DNA from: a bacterium
GTDB taxonomy: Bacteria > UBP15 > UBA6099 > DSWB01
Assembly (NCBI GenBank): GCA_020061125.1
Contig: JAGUYV010000476.1
Location: 1 to 8,176, forward strand
DNA: 8,176 nucleotides
Reading direction: 5' to 3'
This document shows positions 1,037-7,925 of this stretch, one piece after another (the stretch's first letter is position 1; every line of letters begins with the position of its first letter). Under the pieces are notes generated by a model. That model saw only the letters and a program-made list of their open reading frames with translations. It ran no database searches and had not been told where the DNA came from. Made by a program: the position numbers and the translations under genes.

Positions 1037-1354
1037 TTACACGCAGCCCGTGGGCTTGGGCAGCCCGGCGACTTTACAGCCGCCCTTGGCCGGTCCCGAG
1101 GGGAACAGTTCGTAGATCTTCTTGAGATCGAACTTGGTTTCCTTGCAGACTTTGCGAATCATGGGGGCGATACCGAACTTCAGGTAATAGTTGCGCAGAT
1201 AGTTGATGAGCACCCAGTGCTCATCGGTCAGGTTGTCCACGCCTTCCGTCTTGGCCAGGTCGGCCGCCACGGCTTCGTCCCACTGTTCCGGATCCTGAAT
1301 GAAGCCATCCTCGTCAATGTCGAGATCTTTGCCACCGAGTGATACTGTCGGCAT
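1037..1354 (-). CDS. dsrC: DsrC, sulfur-carrier partner of dissimilatory sulfite reductase
   Basis: The 105-residue protein is full length for the DsrC/TusE family. It ends in the flexible arm GGCKVAGLPKPTGCV with both conserved cysteines: Cys93 and the penultimate Cys104, spaced by exactly ten residues. This makes it a true DsrC rather than a single-cysteine TusE- or regulator-like homolog. In sulfite reduction the arm enters DsrAB, and a trisulfide bridges the two cysteines as product, later reduced by the membrane complex DsrMKJOP (not in this window). The start is set by AAAGGAGG (1364-1371), 9 nt before the ATG. The gene begins 28 bp after dsrN, so co-transcription with dsrABN is likely. 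In Desulfovibrio, from memory, dsrC lies away from dsrAB, so the linkage here is informative. Confidence 0.96.
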   Translation of the reverse strand: MPTVSLGGKDLDIDEDGFIQDPEQWDEAVAADLAKTEGVDNLTDEHWVLINYLRNYYLKFGIAPMIRKVCKETKFDLKKIYELFPSGPAKGGCKVAGLPKPTGCV

Positions 1355-1382: not shown

Positions 1383-2876
1383 TTAAGTTTTTCCAACCAC
1401 TTTTTTATATACAGATTTCAACTGGTTTTCAAGGGATTTTCCACCGTTTTCAAGAGAAACGCGGGGCGTGGCCTGCTTGCGCTCCATGTGGCGGATGGCG
1501 CTGCGGATGAGTCCTGCGGCCCAGCCGTGTTCGCCGGCCGCGTGCATGTGCGAATATGCGGCCAGCACATTGCGGTGGCACGCTCCATCGTGCGCGCCGT
1601 CAAACCCGTAGCCGCGCTCCAGGGTGAACGCCATGGTCATGGCGTCCTGGTCCCACTCGAGCACATAGGAGTAATGGAATTCGTGGCCGCGCAGAGTCTG
1701 CGCCTGTTCGAAGAAGGGGTTGGCCCGGTCCACGCGGCAGACCGTGTAGCCGTGCCCGCGGGGGCGGCGGCTCAAGCCATAGGTGATGGGCAGCGCGCCC
1801 ACCATAGGATACTCGCGCCCGTCGCACACGAGCGTGTTGCCCATGTACATGGCGCCGCCGCATTCCGCATAGACCGGCAGGCCGTCTTCCACGGCCTGGC
1901 GCAGGGCGATGCGGAATGTTTCGTTGCCCGCGAGTTGCGCGGCGTGGGTTTCGGGGAACCCGCCGCCTATGTAAAGCGCGTCAATGTCAGGCAGGAACCG
2001 GTCCGTGAGCGCGGAGATGTCCACCAGGTCTGCGCCCTGTTCCTTGAGGGCTTCGAGATTTTCCGGATAGTAGAACTGGAACGCGGAATCGCGGATCACG
2101 CCGATGCGTGGCCGGGGATGAGGCATGGGAAGACGGCTCATGCCGGGCCTGCCGCTGGAACGCAATTCCGGTGCGCCAGCAGAAAGCGCCCACAGGGCGT
2201 CCAGGTCAATGTGTTTTTCGACCGCGTCCGCAAGCTGATCCACGGCCTGGTCCACGGTGAGATGCTCCTGCGGAGGAATGAGGCCGAGGTGGCGTTCCTG
2301 GAACGGGAAGTCCTTGAGCCGGGGCATGGCGCCAATCACGGGCACCCCGCATCGGTCCTGGATCGAAGCGCGCAGCATGTCTTCGTGTCGCGCGCGCGCC
2401 ACCTGGTTCAGAATCACGCCGCTGATGGTCACATCCGGATCGAACATCATGCAGCCCAGAACCAGTGCCGCGGCCGTGCGGGTGATTTTGCTGCAGTCCA
2501 CCACCAGAACCACCGGCGCTTCGATGAGTGCGGCCAGGGCCGCGGTGCTGTAACTGCCCTGCTGGTCCATGCCGTCGAACAACCCGCGCGCGCCCTCGAT
2601 GACGGCCATGTCCGCATGGCGCGCATGTTTCACGAACGAGTCAAGCACGGGGTCGTCGCCCAGCAGGAATGTGTCCAGATTGTAGCAAGGGGATTTTGCG
2701 GAACGGGTGAGCCAGGCGGCGTCTATGTAGTCAGGCCCCTTCTTGAAGGAAGCGACCTTGCGTCCCTGACGGATGAGCGCGCGCGTGACGCCCACGCTCA
2801 CGGCGGTTTTGCCCTGCCCGCCGCGCATGGCGGCCAGGATGCAGCGCGGAGTTGTGATGGTTGTGGCGCCGTTCAT
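1383..2876 (-). CDS. dsrN: DsrN, siroheme amidase (CobB/CbiA-type glutamine amidotransferase)
   Basis: The 497-residue protein has the two-domain layout of cobyrinic acid a,c-diamide synthases. The N-terminal ATPase domain carries the P-loop RGGQGKT (residues 18-24) and FKKGPDYID (44-52). The C-terminal class I glutamine amidotransferase domain has YIGGGFPE (302-309), the nucleophile Cys339 in YAECGG, and histidines in RGHEFHYS (396-403) and SHMH (442-445). In dsr operons this homolog is called DsrN and is thought to amidate a siroheme acetate, giving the siro(heme) amide of DsrAB, with glutamine and ATP. Position directly after dsrB and before dsrC favours that role over cobalamin synthesis; CbiA is the alternative name. 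Its ribosome binding site is weak (GCGGGG just before the ATG), and a perfect hairpin lies about 20 nt upstream. The last ~30 residues are a Lys/Asn-rich tail of unknown role. Confidence 0.87.
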   Translation of the reverse strand: MNGATTITTPRCILAAMRGGQGKTAVSVGVTRALIRQGRKVASFKKGPDYIDAAWLTRSAKSPCYNLDTFLLGDDPVLDSFVKHARHADMAVIEGARGLFDGMDQQGSYSTAALAALIEAPVVLVVDCSKITRTAAALVLGCMMFDPDVTISGVILNQVARARHEDMLRASIQDRCGVPVIGAMPRLKDFPFQERHLGLIPPQEHLTVDQAVDQLADAVEKHIDLDALWALSAGAPELRSSGRPGMSRLPMPHPRPRIGVIRDSAFQFYYPENLEALKEQGADLVDISALTDRFLPDIDALYIGGGFPETHAAQLAGNETFRIALRQAVEDGLPVYAECGGAMYMGNTLVCDGREYPMVGALPITYGLSRRPRGHGYTVCRVDRANPFFEQAQTLRGHEFHYSYVLEWDQDAMTMAFTLERGYGFDGAHDGACHRNVLAAYSHMHAAGEHGWAAGLIRSAIRHMERKQATPRVSLENGGKSLENQLKSVYKKVVGKT

Positions 2877-2960: not shown

Positions 2961-4049
2961 TTACTTGATGTGGCTTGTGAACTTGAACATCGTGGTGCGG
3001 CGCAGGGTGGTGATGCCGTAGGAGCCGGCTTCGCCGAAGTCGTCAATATGCTTGTCGGTGAACTCGATGCCGGTGACTTCGAAGAATTTTTCCCAGCCGA
3101 TGCGCTCGATCCAGTCGCCCACGCGCTCGTAGCGCTTGGCGCCTGCAGCGTATTTTTCAACGATGTTCTTGATGGCTTCCACGGTCTCGGGCCATCGCGG
3201 CGGGTTGTTGGGCAGGTACGGAACAGCCAGTTTGGAGAAGCGGGGAGCGGTGCGTGCGCTGGACACTTTGCCGCCGACCCACAGGCTGATGCCGTCGTTT
3301 TCGCTGTCCGCCAGGGGCATGGCCGGGCACATGGTGTAGCAGTTGCCGCAGTACATGCAGCGTTCGCCGTTGACCTTGACGCTCTTGGTCTTGGGATCCG
3401 GCTTGATGGCCGCGGTGGGGCAGGAGCCGATGGTGGAGGGCACTTCGCACATTTTCGGCACTTTTTCCGGATCCACTTTGGGCGGAAGGCGGTGCATGCC
3501 GAGGATGGCGATGTCCGAACAGTGCACGGCGCCGCACATGTTGAGGCAGCAGGCCAGAGCGATGCGCAGCTGCGCCGGGAGCTTCATGCCCTTGAAGTAG
3601 TCAATGAGTTCGTCCATGACGGACTTGACCACGCCGGAGGCGTCGGTTGCCGGGGTGTGGCAGTGCACCCAGCCCTGGGTGTGCACGATGCTGGTGATGG
3701 AGCAGCCGGTGCCGCCGATGGGATAACCCTTGGCGGTGAGCTTGTCAATCAGCGGCTGGAGCTTGGCCTGGTCCTCGACCAGGAACTCGACATTGTGGCG
3801 GCTGGTGAAGCGGAAGTGGCCGCCGCAGAACTCGTCGGCCAGTTCGCAGTAGTCGCGCACGCGATCCGTGCAGATGAGGCGGGCGCCGCCCACGCGCACG
3901 GACCACAGTTTGTCGCCGCTCTCGGCCACATGAACCATGACGCCGGGTTTTTCAATTTCGTGATAGAGCCACTGGCCGTAATTCTTCTTGACCAGATCGG
4001 ACATGAAGTCTTTGAAATACGGAGGGCCGATGTCTGTTTTCGCTGGCAT
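2961..4049 (-). CDS. dsrB: Dissimilatory sulfite reductase beta subunit
   Basis: This 362-residue protein is the beta subunit of the cytoplasmic DsrAB heterotetramer that reduces sulfite with siroheme-[4Fe-4S]. The cluster/siroheme ligands fit the DsrB pattern Cys-x36-CysCys-x3-Cys: Cys130 (VHCHTPATD), Cys167, Cys168 and Cys172 ([13 protein letters not shown]). The inserted ferredoxin domain has Cys210 (SCPTAA) and C231-x2-C234-x2-C237 ([12 protein letters not shown]), enough for its own [4Fe-4S]. Hallmark segments include [19 protein letters not shown] (29-47) and PIGGTG (110-115). The ATG shares one base with the dsrA stop (TAATG), and its ribosome binding site lies inside the dsrA acidic tail codons, so translation is coupled to dsrA. 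The C-terminus extends a few residues (TSHIK) past the FKF where I recall Desulfovibrio DsrB ending. No dsrD follows. Confidence 0.97.
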
Positions 4050-5305
4050 TAGTCGTCATCCTCCTCCTCGTTGGATTCAAGCCCGAGCTCTTCCGGCCAC
4101 CAGAAGAAGTACGGGTTGGAGCGGGGTTCCTTGACCATCTGCGGAATGGCCTTGATGCCCATACCCTTGAGGTACACGCGCAGGCCGATGCGCTCGATCA
4201 TTTCGCCGATTCTTTCGCGGAACTTGGCGTTTTCATCCCAGAACTCCCAGGTGTTCTCGATGAACTCGGCGAGTTCGTCGGACACGGGGGTCATCTTCTC
4301 GCGGGGCATGAAGGGGATGATGACCGAGGACATGAGGGCGCCGTTCAGAATGGGCGCCTTGGCGCCGAGCAGGATGGTGCAGCCCTGGTCCGCGCCCGGG
4401 CGCAGCGCGCGGGGCATGCAGTTGATGCAGTGCATGCAGCGGTTGCACTCGGCGTTGTTGATGGAGAGCTTGTCGCCGTCCCAGCTCATGCACTGGGTGG
4501 GGCACAGGTCAACCACATCTTTCTGGATGTCCAGCTTGACATGCTCCTCATGGGCGCCGCCGTTGGCCTTGAGTTCGCCGGCCGCGTAAGCTTTAACTGC
4601 GGCGGCATCCACGCGGATGGCGTCGCGCCATGTGCCGATGAAGGCCATGTCGGAGCGGGCCACCGAAGCCACGCAGTCGTTGGGGCAGCCCGAGAATTTC
4701 ATCTTGAACTTGTAGGGCCACATGGGGCGGTGCAGTTCCATCTGGTACTTCTGGGTGAGATCGTAGCAGACCTGCAGGTTGTCGTAGCAAGCCCACTCGC
4801 AGCGGCCGGGGCCGGCGCAGGTGCTGGGCGTGCGCAGAGCGCTGCCGGAACCGCCGAGGTCAAATCCGGCTTCAGACAGATCGTCGAAGCAGGGCTGCAG
4901 GGCATCGGTGTTGGTGCCCAGCAGGATGATGTCGCCGGTGGAGCCGTGGAAATTGGTCATGCCGCTTCCATGCTTGTCCCAGATGTCGCACAGGGTGCGC
5001 ATGGCTGTGCTGCTGTAGTACCACCCCGCGGGCTGGTTCACGCGGATGGTGTGGAAGTTTTCCACGCCGGGGAACTTGTCGGGCTGGTCTACATAGCGGC
5101 CCACCACGCCGCCGCCGTAACCCATTACGCCCACAATGCCGCCGTGCTTCCAGTGCACGATCTTCTCCTTGTAGGAGAGCTCGAGCACATTGAGAAGGTC
5201 CATTGTCGTGGCTTTGCGTTTGGCGGCCATCTTGATGTCCGCCACAAAACTCGGCCAAGGCCCCTTCTCGAGTTCGTCGAGCAGTGGAGTTTTGCTTTCT
5301 GCCAT
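4049..5305 (-). CDS. dsrA: Dissimilatory sulfite reductase alpha subunit
   Basis: The 418-residue protein carries the alpha-subunit siroheme-[4Fe-4S] ligand pattern Cys-x5-Cys-x37-Cys-x3-Cys: Cys163, Cys169, Cys207 and Cys211 ([16 protein letters not shown]). Other family landmarks are [20 protein letters not shown] (51-70), HGSTGDI (120-126) and [11 protein letters not shown] (150-160). The ferredoxin domain has LCPTQC (267-272) and CNRCMHC (287-293). Cys296 and Cys309 are extra relative to the Desulfovibrio protein as I remember it. The loop between residues about 25 and 37 is shorter than in Desulfovibrio, suggesting another lineage. The protein ends in an acidic EEEDDD tail. Start: AAAGGAGTG (5311-5319) precedes the ATG by about 5 nt. 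It begins 25 bp after the regulator gene and overlaps dsrB by one base. Reductive rather than oxidative type is inferred from the overall sequence, not from a tree. Confidence 0.97.
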
Positions 5306-5330: not shown

Positions 5331-5813
5331 TTAATCGACCTTATTCCCTTGCATGAAAATGCGCTGAAGAACCGCGCATTTTCGGCAGATTTCCAGTTTT
5401 CGCGACCACTTTTCCTCGGGTTCGCCGGTGCAGTAAGTGCCGGTGTACATCCAGCAACTGTCTCCTCGCTGCAGCCGCCACACGATGCAGCGGTCCCGGT
5501 TCTCCTGCGGGCATTCAAGCTGCTCCCAGCAGGGCAGTATGTCCCGCCTGCGCCGGGTGCGCAAACCCACCAGGTACATGAGGCACAGCCGTTCCACATT
5601 GGCCGGCGTGTTGCGCCAGCCCTGCTCGTAGCTTTGAACGGCTTTCTTGGACACGCCCAGCAGATTGGCCATCTCCTGCTGCGTCATGCCCATGGCCTTC
5701 CGGGCCGTGCGGCAGATGTGCCTGTGCGGCACCGCCGCTCTGTTCAGGCTCTGAACACGGCCCTGCCCCGGTTTCTGTTGTCCGTCAATGTTCTCCCCGG
5801 TTTTCTTTTCCAT
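5331..5813 (-). CDS. HTH regulator with C-terminal two-CW cysteine domain
   Basis: The 160-residue protein has an XRE/Cro-like helix-turn-helix at about 35-70 (ARKAMGMTQQEMANLLGVSK then AVQSYEQGWR). A compact cysteine-rich domain follows at 95-146: Cys95-Trp96, Cys101, Cys109, Cys120-Trp121, Cys128, and C143-x2-C146. Seven cysteines with two CW pairs suggest a metal or Fe-S site that could sense redox state, metal or a sulfur species; this is inferred from spacing. The first 22 residues are low-complexity and hydrophilic; the frame stays open further upstream but without a start codon, so ATG 5813 is used, with a modest GAGG 9 nt before it. The gene is the first of the dsr cluster, ending 25 bp before dsrA on the same strand, and has a strong promoter with palindromes upstream. 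A dsr-specific, possibly self-regulating, transcription factor is the best reading, without direct proof. Confidence 0.8.
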   Translation of the reverse strand: MEKKTGENIDGQQKPGQGRVQSLNRAAVPHRHICRTARKAMGMTQQEMANLLGVSKKAVQSYEQGWRNTPANVERLCLMYLVGLRTRRRRDILPCWEQLECPQENRDRCIVWRLQRGDSCWMYTGTYCTGEPEEKWSRKLEICRKCAVLQRIFMQGNKVD

Positions 5814-5881
5814 GTGACCGGCCTCTAGACCGGTTTCCGGTTGCCGCCCGCTTTGCGCTTCCGGCTGTTTCTCCGGTTTTC
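5768..5881. repeat. Spaced CCGGTTT(T)C repeats around the regulator start
   Basis: On the plus strand CCGGTTT-type motifs occur at 5768, 5797, 5830 and 5873, with CCGGTTG at 5837 and CCGGCTGTTTC at 5861. The main copies are spaced by 29-33 bp, close to three helical turns. They span the leader and first codons of the HTH gene, so they could be an operator array. They could equally reflect a low-complexity Lys/Pro/Glu/Gln-rich coding stretch, since the frame upstream of ATG 5813 is also open. Confidence 0.4.
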
Positions 5882-5888
5882 ATCGGGC

Positions 5889-5925
5889 TTTTTATAAAAA
5901 TGCGATAATTAAAAATGCATTTTTA
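5889..5925. promoter_or_regulatory. Paired AT-rich palindromes at the dsr transcription start (putative operators)
   Basis: Two perfect palindromes, TTTTTATAAAAA (5889-5900) and TAAAAATGCATTTTTA (5910-5925), have centres 23 bp apart, about two helical turns. The half-site AAAAATGC occurs at 5896-5903 and 5911-5918, and inverted within the second palindrome. They lie directly downstream of the -10 and cover the predicted start site, a classic place for repressor binding. The adjacent HTH regulator is the obvious candidate ligand, but this is inference. Confidence 0.5.
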
Positions 5926-5934
5926 CATTGAATG

Positions 5935-5963
5935 TGTATAACACACGGCACAAGGGCCGTCAA
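5935..5963 (-). promoter_or_regulatory. Sigma70-type promoter of the regulator-dsr operon
   Basis: On the minus strand TTGACG (5958-5963) and TATACA (5935-5940) are separated by exactly 17 bp. The -10 overlaps the dyad TGTGT-ATA-ACACA (5933-5945), and GTGTATA is repeated 30 bp apart at 5934-5940 and 5964-5970, bracketing the promoter. Transcription would start near 5928, giving a leader of about 115 nt before the HTH gene. It is the only convincing promoter found for dsrAB. Confidence 0.6.
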
Positions 5964-6344: not shown

Positions 6345-7133
6345 TCAACGCGCCTTTTTCTCGGACGCGCGCTTGATTTGCTCCACATAAATCATGGCGT
6401 TTGCCAGACTCACGGCGATTTGAAGGCTGGGAGAACGCTCGACCATGTGCTTGGCCAACGCGCCCGCGGTTTTGAAATCGCTGTAGGCGTCGTAAAACAG
6501 AATGGTTCGCTTGCCGCCCTTGGCCGGAACCAGTTCCCAGGCGCCGTTCAGCCCCTTGCCTTTATCCCCCGTGGTCTCGAATTCCATGCGCTTGCCGGCG
6601 TCCATGGTATAGGCGAGCGTGTAATCGGAGGTGAGGTTCACCGGCCCGGCTTTGAGCAGAGACATTTTGAAACTCACGGTTGCGCCTTTGTCCGTTTTGT
6701 TCTTGACTTTCACGCCCGTGCATTCGCGGATGTATTTGGTGTAATTTTCGAAATCCGTAAGAACGGCCCAGACTTTGTCCGGCGCCGCATCCACGATCAT
6801 GCCGACTACGGCGCGCTCGCCGCCCGCGCGGTCAATGTATGCGAACTTGTCTGTGCCCACCATTTTGGTGAGTGCGGCTTCGTTCATGCCCCTCCAGAAA
6901 GGGTTTTTAGGCGCAGCGGCTCGCGCATCGAGCGCGCCTGTCAGCAGCACGGCGGCAAACATGACGGCGGCGGTGAGGCTTTTGAAACTGCCGGACGGCC
7001 GCAAAAAGCAGGTACAGGCACGCGGAAAAGCGCCGCGTTCCCAGTCCCTGTATTTTGCTGTGCTTGCGCCTTTTACGCAGCTTTTTTGGAAGGGCGGCAG
7101 CCCCGCGAGTGACGAAATATATATCCGTTTCAT
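6345..7133 (-). CDS. Exported SRPBCC/START-like domain protein (second of tandem pair)
   Basis: With the start at ATG 7133 the protein has 262 residues. A hydrophobic export signal (SLTAAVMFAAVLLTGALDARA) sits about 50 residues in, which is unusually far from the start. It is followed by an SRPBCC-type lipid/hydrophobic-ligand-binding fold: VDAAPDKVWAVLTDFENYTK then YIRECTGVKV, and GAWELVPAKGGKRTILFYDA near the end. The COQ10/polyketide-cyclase-like pattern is clear, but the ligand is unknown. ATG 7133 is chosen because GAGGTG lies about 7 nt upstream; GTG 7139 is two codons longer. An internal TTG about 13 codons before the signal core would give a normal signal peptide but lacks a ribosome binding site. 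The long Cys-containing leader (CVKG, CTCF) is odd; a frameshift at the A6 run (7082-7087) is one explanation. It starts 55 bp after its paralog and likely shares its operon. Confidence 0.72.
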   Translation of the reverse strand: MKRIYISSLAGLPPFQKSCVKGASTAKYRDWERGAFPRACTCFLRPSGSFKSLTAAVMFAAVLLTGALDARAAAPKNPFWRGMNEAALTKMVGTDKFAYIDRAGGERAVVGMIVDAAPDKVWAVLTDFENYTKYIRECTGVKVKNKTDKGATVSFKMSLLKAGPVNLTSDYTLAYTMDAGKRMEFETTGDKGKGLNGAWELVPAKGGKRTILFYDAYSDFKTAGALAKHMVERSPSLQIAVSLANAMIYVEQIKRASEKKAR

Positions 7134-7188
7134 TCTCACACCTCTTTTTGTGTTGTTTTCCGGGAGCGCCAGATCGAGCCGGGCGCCT

Positions 7189-7830
7189 TTACTTCTTCTC
7201 CGCTTTCTTGCGCACGGCCTGGGCCAGCATCACGGCGCTGGACAGGTTGATGGCGGTTTCCGTGGCCGGCTGGTTGTCGAGCGCTGTTTTGGCGATGGGG
7301 CTGGCGGATTTGAGATTCGAGGTGATGCCGTAAATCACGATGGTCTTTTTGCCGCCGTCCGCGGGCTTCAACTCCCAGTATCCGCTGACATCCTTGACCT
7401 TGCCGCTCACCCATTCGATCTTCACATGTTTGGGCCGGGTTTTGGTGACCTTGAGCGTATAGTCCGTGGCAATCTTGAGGGGACCGAAATCCACCACCGT
7501 GACCTCGAACCACACATGAACCACATTCTTGCCCTTGGGCGTGACTTTCACATCCGTGACCTCGGGCATGAGCTTGCCGTAGTTCTCGTAGTCCACGATG
7601 ATGTCGAACACTTTTTCCGGAGGCGCGGCCACCAGAAATCCGATGGTCGCCATCTCGATGGCCCCCGCTCTGTTCACGCCCACCAGATCGCCTTTGTCGA
7701 GCAGTTTCTTCATAGTTGCGGCGTCGAGCTTTTTCCACGACGGCTCGCCCATGGTCGCGGCGCGCGCCTGGCCGCAGGCCGCCAGCGCGAACGCCAGCGC
7801 CAGAATCCATTTCATGCTCCGGTTGCTCAT
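7189..7830 (-). CDS. Exported SRPBCC/START-like domain protein (first of tandem pair)
   Basis: The 213-residue protein starts MSNRSMKWILALAFALAACG, a signal peptide with either a lipobox (L16-A17-A18-C19) or signal peptidase I cleavage after QARA (24). It should therefore be periplasmic or a membrane-anchored lipoprotein. The mature part is an SRPBCC fold: APPEKVFDIIVDYENYGK then LMPEVTDVKV, and GYWELKPADGGKKTIVIYG. It is clearly paralogous to the next gene in motif order and spacing. ATG 7830 is preferred because GGGGGGAT lies about 6 nt upstream; the earlier ATG 7896 would place 22 unneeded residues before the signal, and MKW at 7815 has a poorly spaced site. A hydrophobic-ligand carrier or cell-envelope role is inferred. 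Link to sulfite reduction is not supported beyond proximity. Confidence 0.75.
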   Translation of the reverse strand: MSNRSMKWILALAFALAACGQARAATMGEPSWKKLDAATMKKLLDKGDLVGVNRAGAIEMATIGFLVAAPPEKVFDIIVDYENYGKLMPEVTDVKVTPKGKNVVHVWFEVTVVDFGPLKIATDYTLKVTKTRPKHVKIEWVSGKVKDVSGYWELKPADGGKKTIVIYGITSNLKSASPIAKTALDNQPATETAINLSSAVMLAQAVRKKAEKK

Positions 7831-7842
7831 GCGCAATCCCCC

Positions 7843-7875
7843 CGCACGCCCGTGCGCCGCGAAAACCCGGAACCG
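7843..7875 (-). promoter_or_regulatory. Hairpins in the SRPBCC operon leader
   Basis: CGCAC-GCCC-GTGCG (7843-7856) forms a 5-bp stem directly upstream of the ribosome binding site of the first SRPBCC gene. Just before it, nested CCGG repeats near 7866-7886 can pair and are followed in the minus-strand transcript by TTTTC. A leader attenuator or translation control is possible, though GC-rich DNA forms such stems often. Confidence 0.3.
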
Positions 7876-7925
7876 GCCCAAGCCGGGCCTGTTCACGATT
7901 GCGCACTGGCGGAATGTTTATTGGG

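Follow-up and report, generated by a model that had tools for sequence, protein, structure and literature searches.

A widespread family of HTH-two-CW regulators with a conserved predicted operator near sulfur and Fe-S genes, and a member at the head of a dsr operon

Our study reports on a family of bacterial regulators in which an XRE-type HTH is joined to a small, cysteine-rich two-CW domain. These HTH-two-CW proteins are widespread in bacteria, recur beside sulfur-assimilation and Fe-S genes with a conserved predicted DNA site, and are apparently undescribed. The member studied here heads a dsr operon in the window, which is an entire contig of 8,176 bases from a 4.1-Mb genome (G000) in 513 contigs; this genome is about 79% complete, and gene absences in it are therefore soft. 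We consider it fairly probable, from its sequence and genomic context, that the protein is a repressor responding to sulfur or Fe-S status which acts on cysEK and on its own promoter, a promoter that in this lineage would also drive dsrAB. How sulfate and sulfite reducers control sulfur assimilation and dsrAB is poorly known, and the family offers a hypothesis for how a cell that produces sulfide for energy senses its biosynthetic need for sulfide.

The first-pass annotation described a protein of 160 residues with an XRE-type HTH and a small domain containing seven cysteines, and this description holds. The HTH matches Pfam HTH_3 above its cut-off (1.4e-7), the C-terminal part scores 41 bits with the NCBIfam model NF045718, two_CW_domain (cut-off 35), and the cysteines follow the order CW-C-C-CW-C-CxxC (C95, C101, C109, C120, C128, C143 and C146). 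With these two matches the protein is very probably a DNA-binding regulator carrying a cysteine-rich domain of the sensor type, as had been suggested. Profile searches yielded 118 HTH-two-CW genes, across which the seven cysteines are 94-100% conserved and the recognition helix SKKAVQSYEQGWR is nearly invariant. The window protein covers the full span of the 114-position HTH-two-CW profile and forms a very long branch in the homolog tree, so that its specificity may have drifted. Its start codon, ATG or GTG, is uncertain: 77% of homolog starts align to residue 29, an in-frame GTG stands at residue 28 (5732), and residues 1-28 have low confidence in the predicted model. The model places the HTH helices at H30-41, H45-52, H56-64 and H71-85, with pLDDT values of 91-95 for the HTH; the cysteine domain is fairly confident in the full-length model and middling when modeled in isolation (pLDDT 74). 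A Foldseek search with this isolated model listed no PDB match, a result that does not of itself show a new fold.

The modeled HTH resembles that of palindrome-binding repressors (e.g. Aca2) and that of MqsA, and its likeness to the MqsA and HigA HTHs would fit an antitoxin-like XRE protein of either type, with a zinc domain and a role unrelated to sulfur control. We regard such a role as highly improbable, given that TIGR03830 scores 29.2 bits against a cut-off of 61.8, that a toxin neighbor is absent from the window and none recurs at homolog loci, and that the recurrent neighbors are sulfur genes. Two further regulator families were tried and rejected. CymR, like IscR, belongs to the Rrf2 family, and the window protein has no Rrf2 Pfam match; for the CRP/FNR family, which includes HcpR, HTH_Crp_2 scores 14 bits against 27 and the cNMP domain is missing.

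On the minus strand the window carries, in order, two tandem START-type genes, the regulator, dsrA, dsrB, a cobyrinate diamide synthase gene, dsrC and a ferredoxin gene (Table 1). The regulator is indeed the first gene of the dsr operon, as annotated at first pass, and its stop lies 25 bp ahead of the dsrA ATG (5305). The two genes upstream of it encode tandem paralogous START/polyketide-cyclase-like proteins (6345-7139 and 7189-7896, minus strand). A search for known RNA elements across the window found none at the gathering score.

Table 1. Features of the dsr operon and its promoter region in the window.
Feature	Position	Strand	Basis or remark
HTH-two-CW regulator gene	5331..5813	(-)	160 aa from ATG; 133 aa if GTG 5732 is the start
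XRE-type HTH, residues 30-85	5559..5726	(-)	Pfam HTH_3, conservation, model helices
Two-CW domain, C95 to C146	5376..5531	(-)	NF045718, invariant columns; seven conserved Cys
Alternative GTG start	5730..5732	(-)	Alignment: start point of most homologs
dsrA	4049..5305	(-)	TIGR02064, 559 bits
dsrB	2961..4049	(-)	TIGR02066, 510 bits
Cobyrinate a,c-diamide synthase-like gene (cobB/CbiA; dsrN-like)	1383..2876	(-)	NF002204
dsrC	1037..1354	(-)	TIGR03342
-35 box TTGACG, operon promoter	5958..5963	(-)	Sequence and composite search
-10 box TATACA, 17-nt spacer	5935..5940	(-)	Sequence and composite search
Putative operator half-site TGTGTTAT (consensus TGTGGTAT)	5938..5945	(-)	Canonical offset from -35 box
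Palindrome TGTGTTATACACA, containing half-site TGTGTTAT	5945-5933	(-)	
Palindrome TAAAAATGCATTTTTA, 16 nt	5910..5925	(-)	Close to chance

This position in the operon, the short gap to dsrA and a half-site at the dsr promoter are the features that speak for a dedicated dsr regulator whose main role is the control of dsrAB transcription. That was the proposal made at first pass, with a survey of gene neighborhoods as its test, and the survey goes against it. In 78 homologous loci from genomes of the GTDB collection, with DNA examined up to 6 kb on either side, dsrA or dsrB was found at none (0/78), and a full dsrA lies elsewhere in 27 of the 49 homolog-carrying genomes that were searched whole. 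A two-CW match occurs in 127 of 395 Desulfobacterota genomes; of the 80 among these 127 that were searched for dsrA, 49 have it. About 75 genomes have both genes; among the matches listed no pair lies within 20 kb, and the closest pair listed is 23.5 kb apart (G265). The operator sites of the family and the cysE site in G000 (see below) likewise point to other genes, and we judge a dedicated dsr regulator to be very unlikely.

Among seven genomes from the window's phylum, a second dsrA was found only in the sister genome G001 (71% identity). There DsrD (Pfam PF08679, 51 bits; L084:9240-9500) stands directly upstream of dsrA, and a search of G001 for a relative of the regulator found none; in the window no dsrD adjoins dsrAB, and the regulator occupies that place. 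The dsr position is thus particular to the window's lineage, since the homologs surveyed show no link to dsr and DsrD holds the corresponding site in G001. We regard the protein as a real regulator to which the dsr-dedicated label does not apply; it came to lead a dsr operon in one lineage. DsrD resembles the regulator in being a small protein beside dsrA, and differs in its unrelated sequence; it activates the enzyme allosterically (PMC10591310).

The neighbors of the homologs suggest what the family controls. The gene directly after the homolog is mnmA (tRNA 2-thiolation) in 45 Desulfobulbales-type loci, with mtaB, cinA and recA beyond it. In about ten other Desulfobacterota loci the next genes are metY-metX-metW (sulfide incorporation into homocysteine). 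The metY-metX-metW loci are dispersed over the tree, where supported branches force at least six changes. Homologs also stand ahead of cysK in Acidobacteriota and Desulfobacterota, and others ahead of sulfide-dependent thi4, thiE, moeB/thiF or homoserine dehydrogenase; some adjoin nifU/iscU or diverge from nifU, and many are without an obvious sulfur neighbor. A sulfur or Fe-S gene lies within 2 kb at 15 of 40 context-unselected loci versus 2 of 40 control stretches, drawn mostly from the same genomes (Fisher p 7e-4, an optimistic value because the seed gene list was drawn up after the loci had been inspected). A stronger argument than this p-value is that metYX recurs at distances of less than 0.5 kb. 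At four Kiritimatiellota/Verrucomicrobiota-type loci (L070, L071, L074 and L075) the HTH-two-CW gene lies by methylene-THF-reductase-like and CO dehydrogenase (Wood-Ljungdahl) genes, which were named by eye.

A predicted operator emerged from a search in which spaced tetramers were counted in the 200 nt upstream of 117 homolog genes, with no motif supplied. The palindrome CCAC-2-TGTG occurs upstream of 37 of the 117, against a shuffle maximum of 13. The refined operator is ATACCACAWTGTGGTAT, the best matches to which cluster about 57 bp ahead of the regulator gene and span Desulfobacterota, Acidobacteriota, Kiritimatiellota, Lentisphaerota and Latescibacterota. With hold-out matrices trained on half of the non-Desulfobulbales loci, 20-23 of 36 non-Desulfobulbales and 20-25 of 45 Desulfobulbales regions score above the 99% control threshold. 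The exact core is present in 23 of the 395 Desulfobacterota genomes and the reversed control pattern in 2; two-CW carriers make up 20 of the 23 core-bearing genomes, compared with 127 of 395 overall (p 3e-8), the exact-core sites including some at the regulators' own promoters. Exact sites also occur in a gap flanked by a regulator gene and nifU, and ahead of CO dehydrogenase (G167, L215). The trinucleotide TTG stands exactly 19 nt ahead of GTGGTA at 31 of the 38 loci from Desulfobulbales and at 15 of the 34 remaining ones. We read it as the -35 box of a predicted sigma-70 promoter with 17-nt spacing, whose -10 box overlaps the operator; this layout would be that of repression through blocking of the polymerase. 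Two other placements of the exact operator were observed, one between a divergent nadA and a homocysteine-biosynthesis gene (HcyBio, PF01837; L205:1501-1515) and one ahead of a 450-aa protein in two genomes (L212 and L213, 1501-1515), with a cytochrome-like gene on its other side in L212.

The genome of the window contains two palindromes that are one mismatch from the operator core, where 0.66 are expected. One, AAACCACATTGTGGTAC (G000:C456:11824-11838), lies between nifU-nifS and cysE-cysK, about 60-80 bp ahead of cysE. It scores 22 with the matrix, compared with a control 99% level of 8-9.5, above all 1,148 control stretches, and is the sole strong intergenic copy of the operator in G000; the second (C162) was set aside, as it lies within a coding ORF. 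Because the matrix contained no G000 sequence, the cysE site constitutes an independent test, and it places an operator ahead of a sulfur gene in the same genome as the window regulator. With up to two mismatches, sites in G000 are not in excess (4 versus 6 for the reversed-pattern control), so the case for cysE as a target rests on one site. In G001 the order nifS-cysE-cysK is kept with neither regulator nor operator site, and the operator is absent at cysE of the regulator-less relatives examined (G001, G002, G003 and G005).

At the head of the dsr operon the evidence is of a different kind. A strong promoter with palindromes over the start had been proposed; the promoter is there, but its strength was overstated, as TTGACG-17-TATACA agrees at 5/6 and 4/6 positions, and the arm length of palindrome TAAAAATGCATTTTTA is reached by about 4% of Markov shuffles. 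A generic promoter scan did not return TTGACG-17-TATACA, since its rule asks for a -10 box with a final T. By matrix score no full operator is significant in the 531 nt upstream of the regulator; a strong site is also missing at about one third of homologs. The best full-site match in the window (1329-1345, score 9.0) was discarded, as it falls within the dsrC coding sequence. What the promoter does contain is the composite TTGACG-N12-TGTGTTAT (5963-5938), in which the half-site is one mismatch from TGTGGTAT and sits at the exact position seen in the family, where the composite of -35 box and half-site occurs in 30 of 117 loci. Its chance frequency is about 0.002 per such region (controls with a relaxed -35 requirement: 3 in 748 kb), and that of the half-site, once a TTGACN-17-TATA promoter is granted, is about 1.6%. 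The window palindromes are not conserved in the dsr upstream region of G001. In G001, which lacks the regulator, the dsr promoter (TTGACA-17-TATATT) shows this layout too, though with two mismatches; this weakens the half-site argument, and the layout may predate the regulator's arrival.

These observations bear on a further explanation, that of a passenger: the regulator would act on cysE-cysK, and possibly on further sulfur genes, but would merely sit ahead of dsrA, be read from the dsr promoter and have no effect on dsr. Such a passenger would be consistent with the absent full operator, the strong site at cysE, the similar promoter in regulator-less G001 and the lack of dsr linkage among the homologs. 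It accords less well with a half-site at the exact family position, at the low chance frequencies given above, or with the fact that the family operator is usually found at the regulator's own promoter, and we consider it unlikely. Under the reading that we favor, of a cysEK repressor that also acts on its own promoter, control of dsr through autoregulation is possible and would operate via the half-site only.

We propose the following model for the activity of the family. HTH-two-CW proteins would be dimeric XRE-type repressors that tune sulfur assimilation, sulfur transfer and Fe-S assembly, with the sulfur or Fe-S status of the cell as their cue. The seven cysteines may hold a metal or an Fe-S cluster, and could thereby sense sulfide, cysteine or cluster supply. 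In the promoters of its own gene and of its targets, the repressor would bind ATACCACAWTGTGGTAT in the interval from the -35 to the -10 box and so block RNA polymerase; the outside target recognized in G000 is the putative cysE-cysK site, downstream of nifU-nifS. Since the regulator gene heads dsrAB-cobB-dsrC, the dsr operon would share the autoregulated promoter if co-transcribed with it, and one switch could tune sulfide production together with sulfide use. A more far-reaching version, which we put forward tentatively, has a redox-, Fe-S- or sulfide-sensing repressor controlling both dsrAB (through the half-site) and cysE-cysK (through the full site) directly, coupling dissimilatory sulfide production to assimilation, in a family that would be an unrecognized sulfur regulator of anaerobes from several phyla. 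The conserved operator, its promoter position and the recurrent neighbors (metYX, cysEK, mnmA and nifU) define a regulon that lends itself to direct testing in those Desulfobulbales that can be cultured, as well as in many further anaerobes.

Comparison with known systems places the proposed role among those of other sulfur regulators. IscR, the Rrf2 Fe-S regulator, resembles the window regulator in the putative role of the latter as a sensor of Fe-S or sulfur supply, and family sites precede nifU-type genes in some genomes, but the DNA-binding family and cysteine arrangement of IscR are different, and the cluster of the window regulator is putative. CymR, which governs cysteine metabolism in Bacillota as its master regulator (PMC2869319), would be alike in controlling cysteine and sulfur assimilation genes; the window regulator differs from it in its XRE plus two-CW architecture and in its operator. 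HcpR is likewise tied to sulfate-reduction genes and is of a family unlike that of the window regulator; it is predicted to regulate sat and apsAB in Desulfovibrio, in a regulon that explicitly does not include dsrAB (PMC545781). A search of a collection of open-access papers for the two-CW domain name or the operator found nothing relevant. The proteins closest in kind are those of NF045718, which share the cysteine pattern above the curated cut-off; the model names the domain only, alone or with kinase, cyclase or nickel-responsive domains, with no function or operator attached. Examples (L093, L097 and L111) are a cNMP-binding/Ser-Thr kinase pair, a HAMP-adenylate cyclase and an SCO4226-like nickel-responsive domain, partners that fit a putative sensor role for the two-CW domain.
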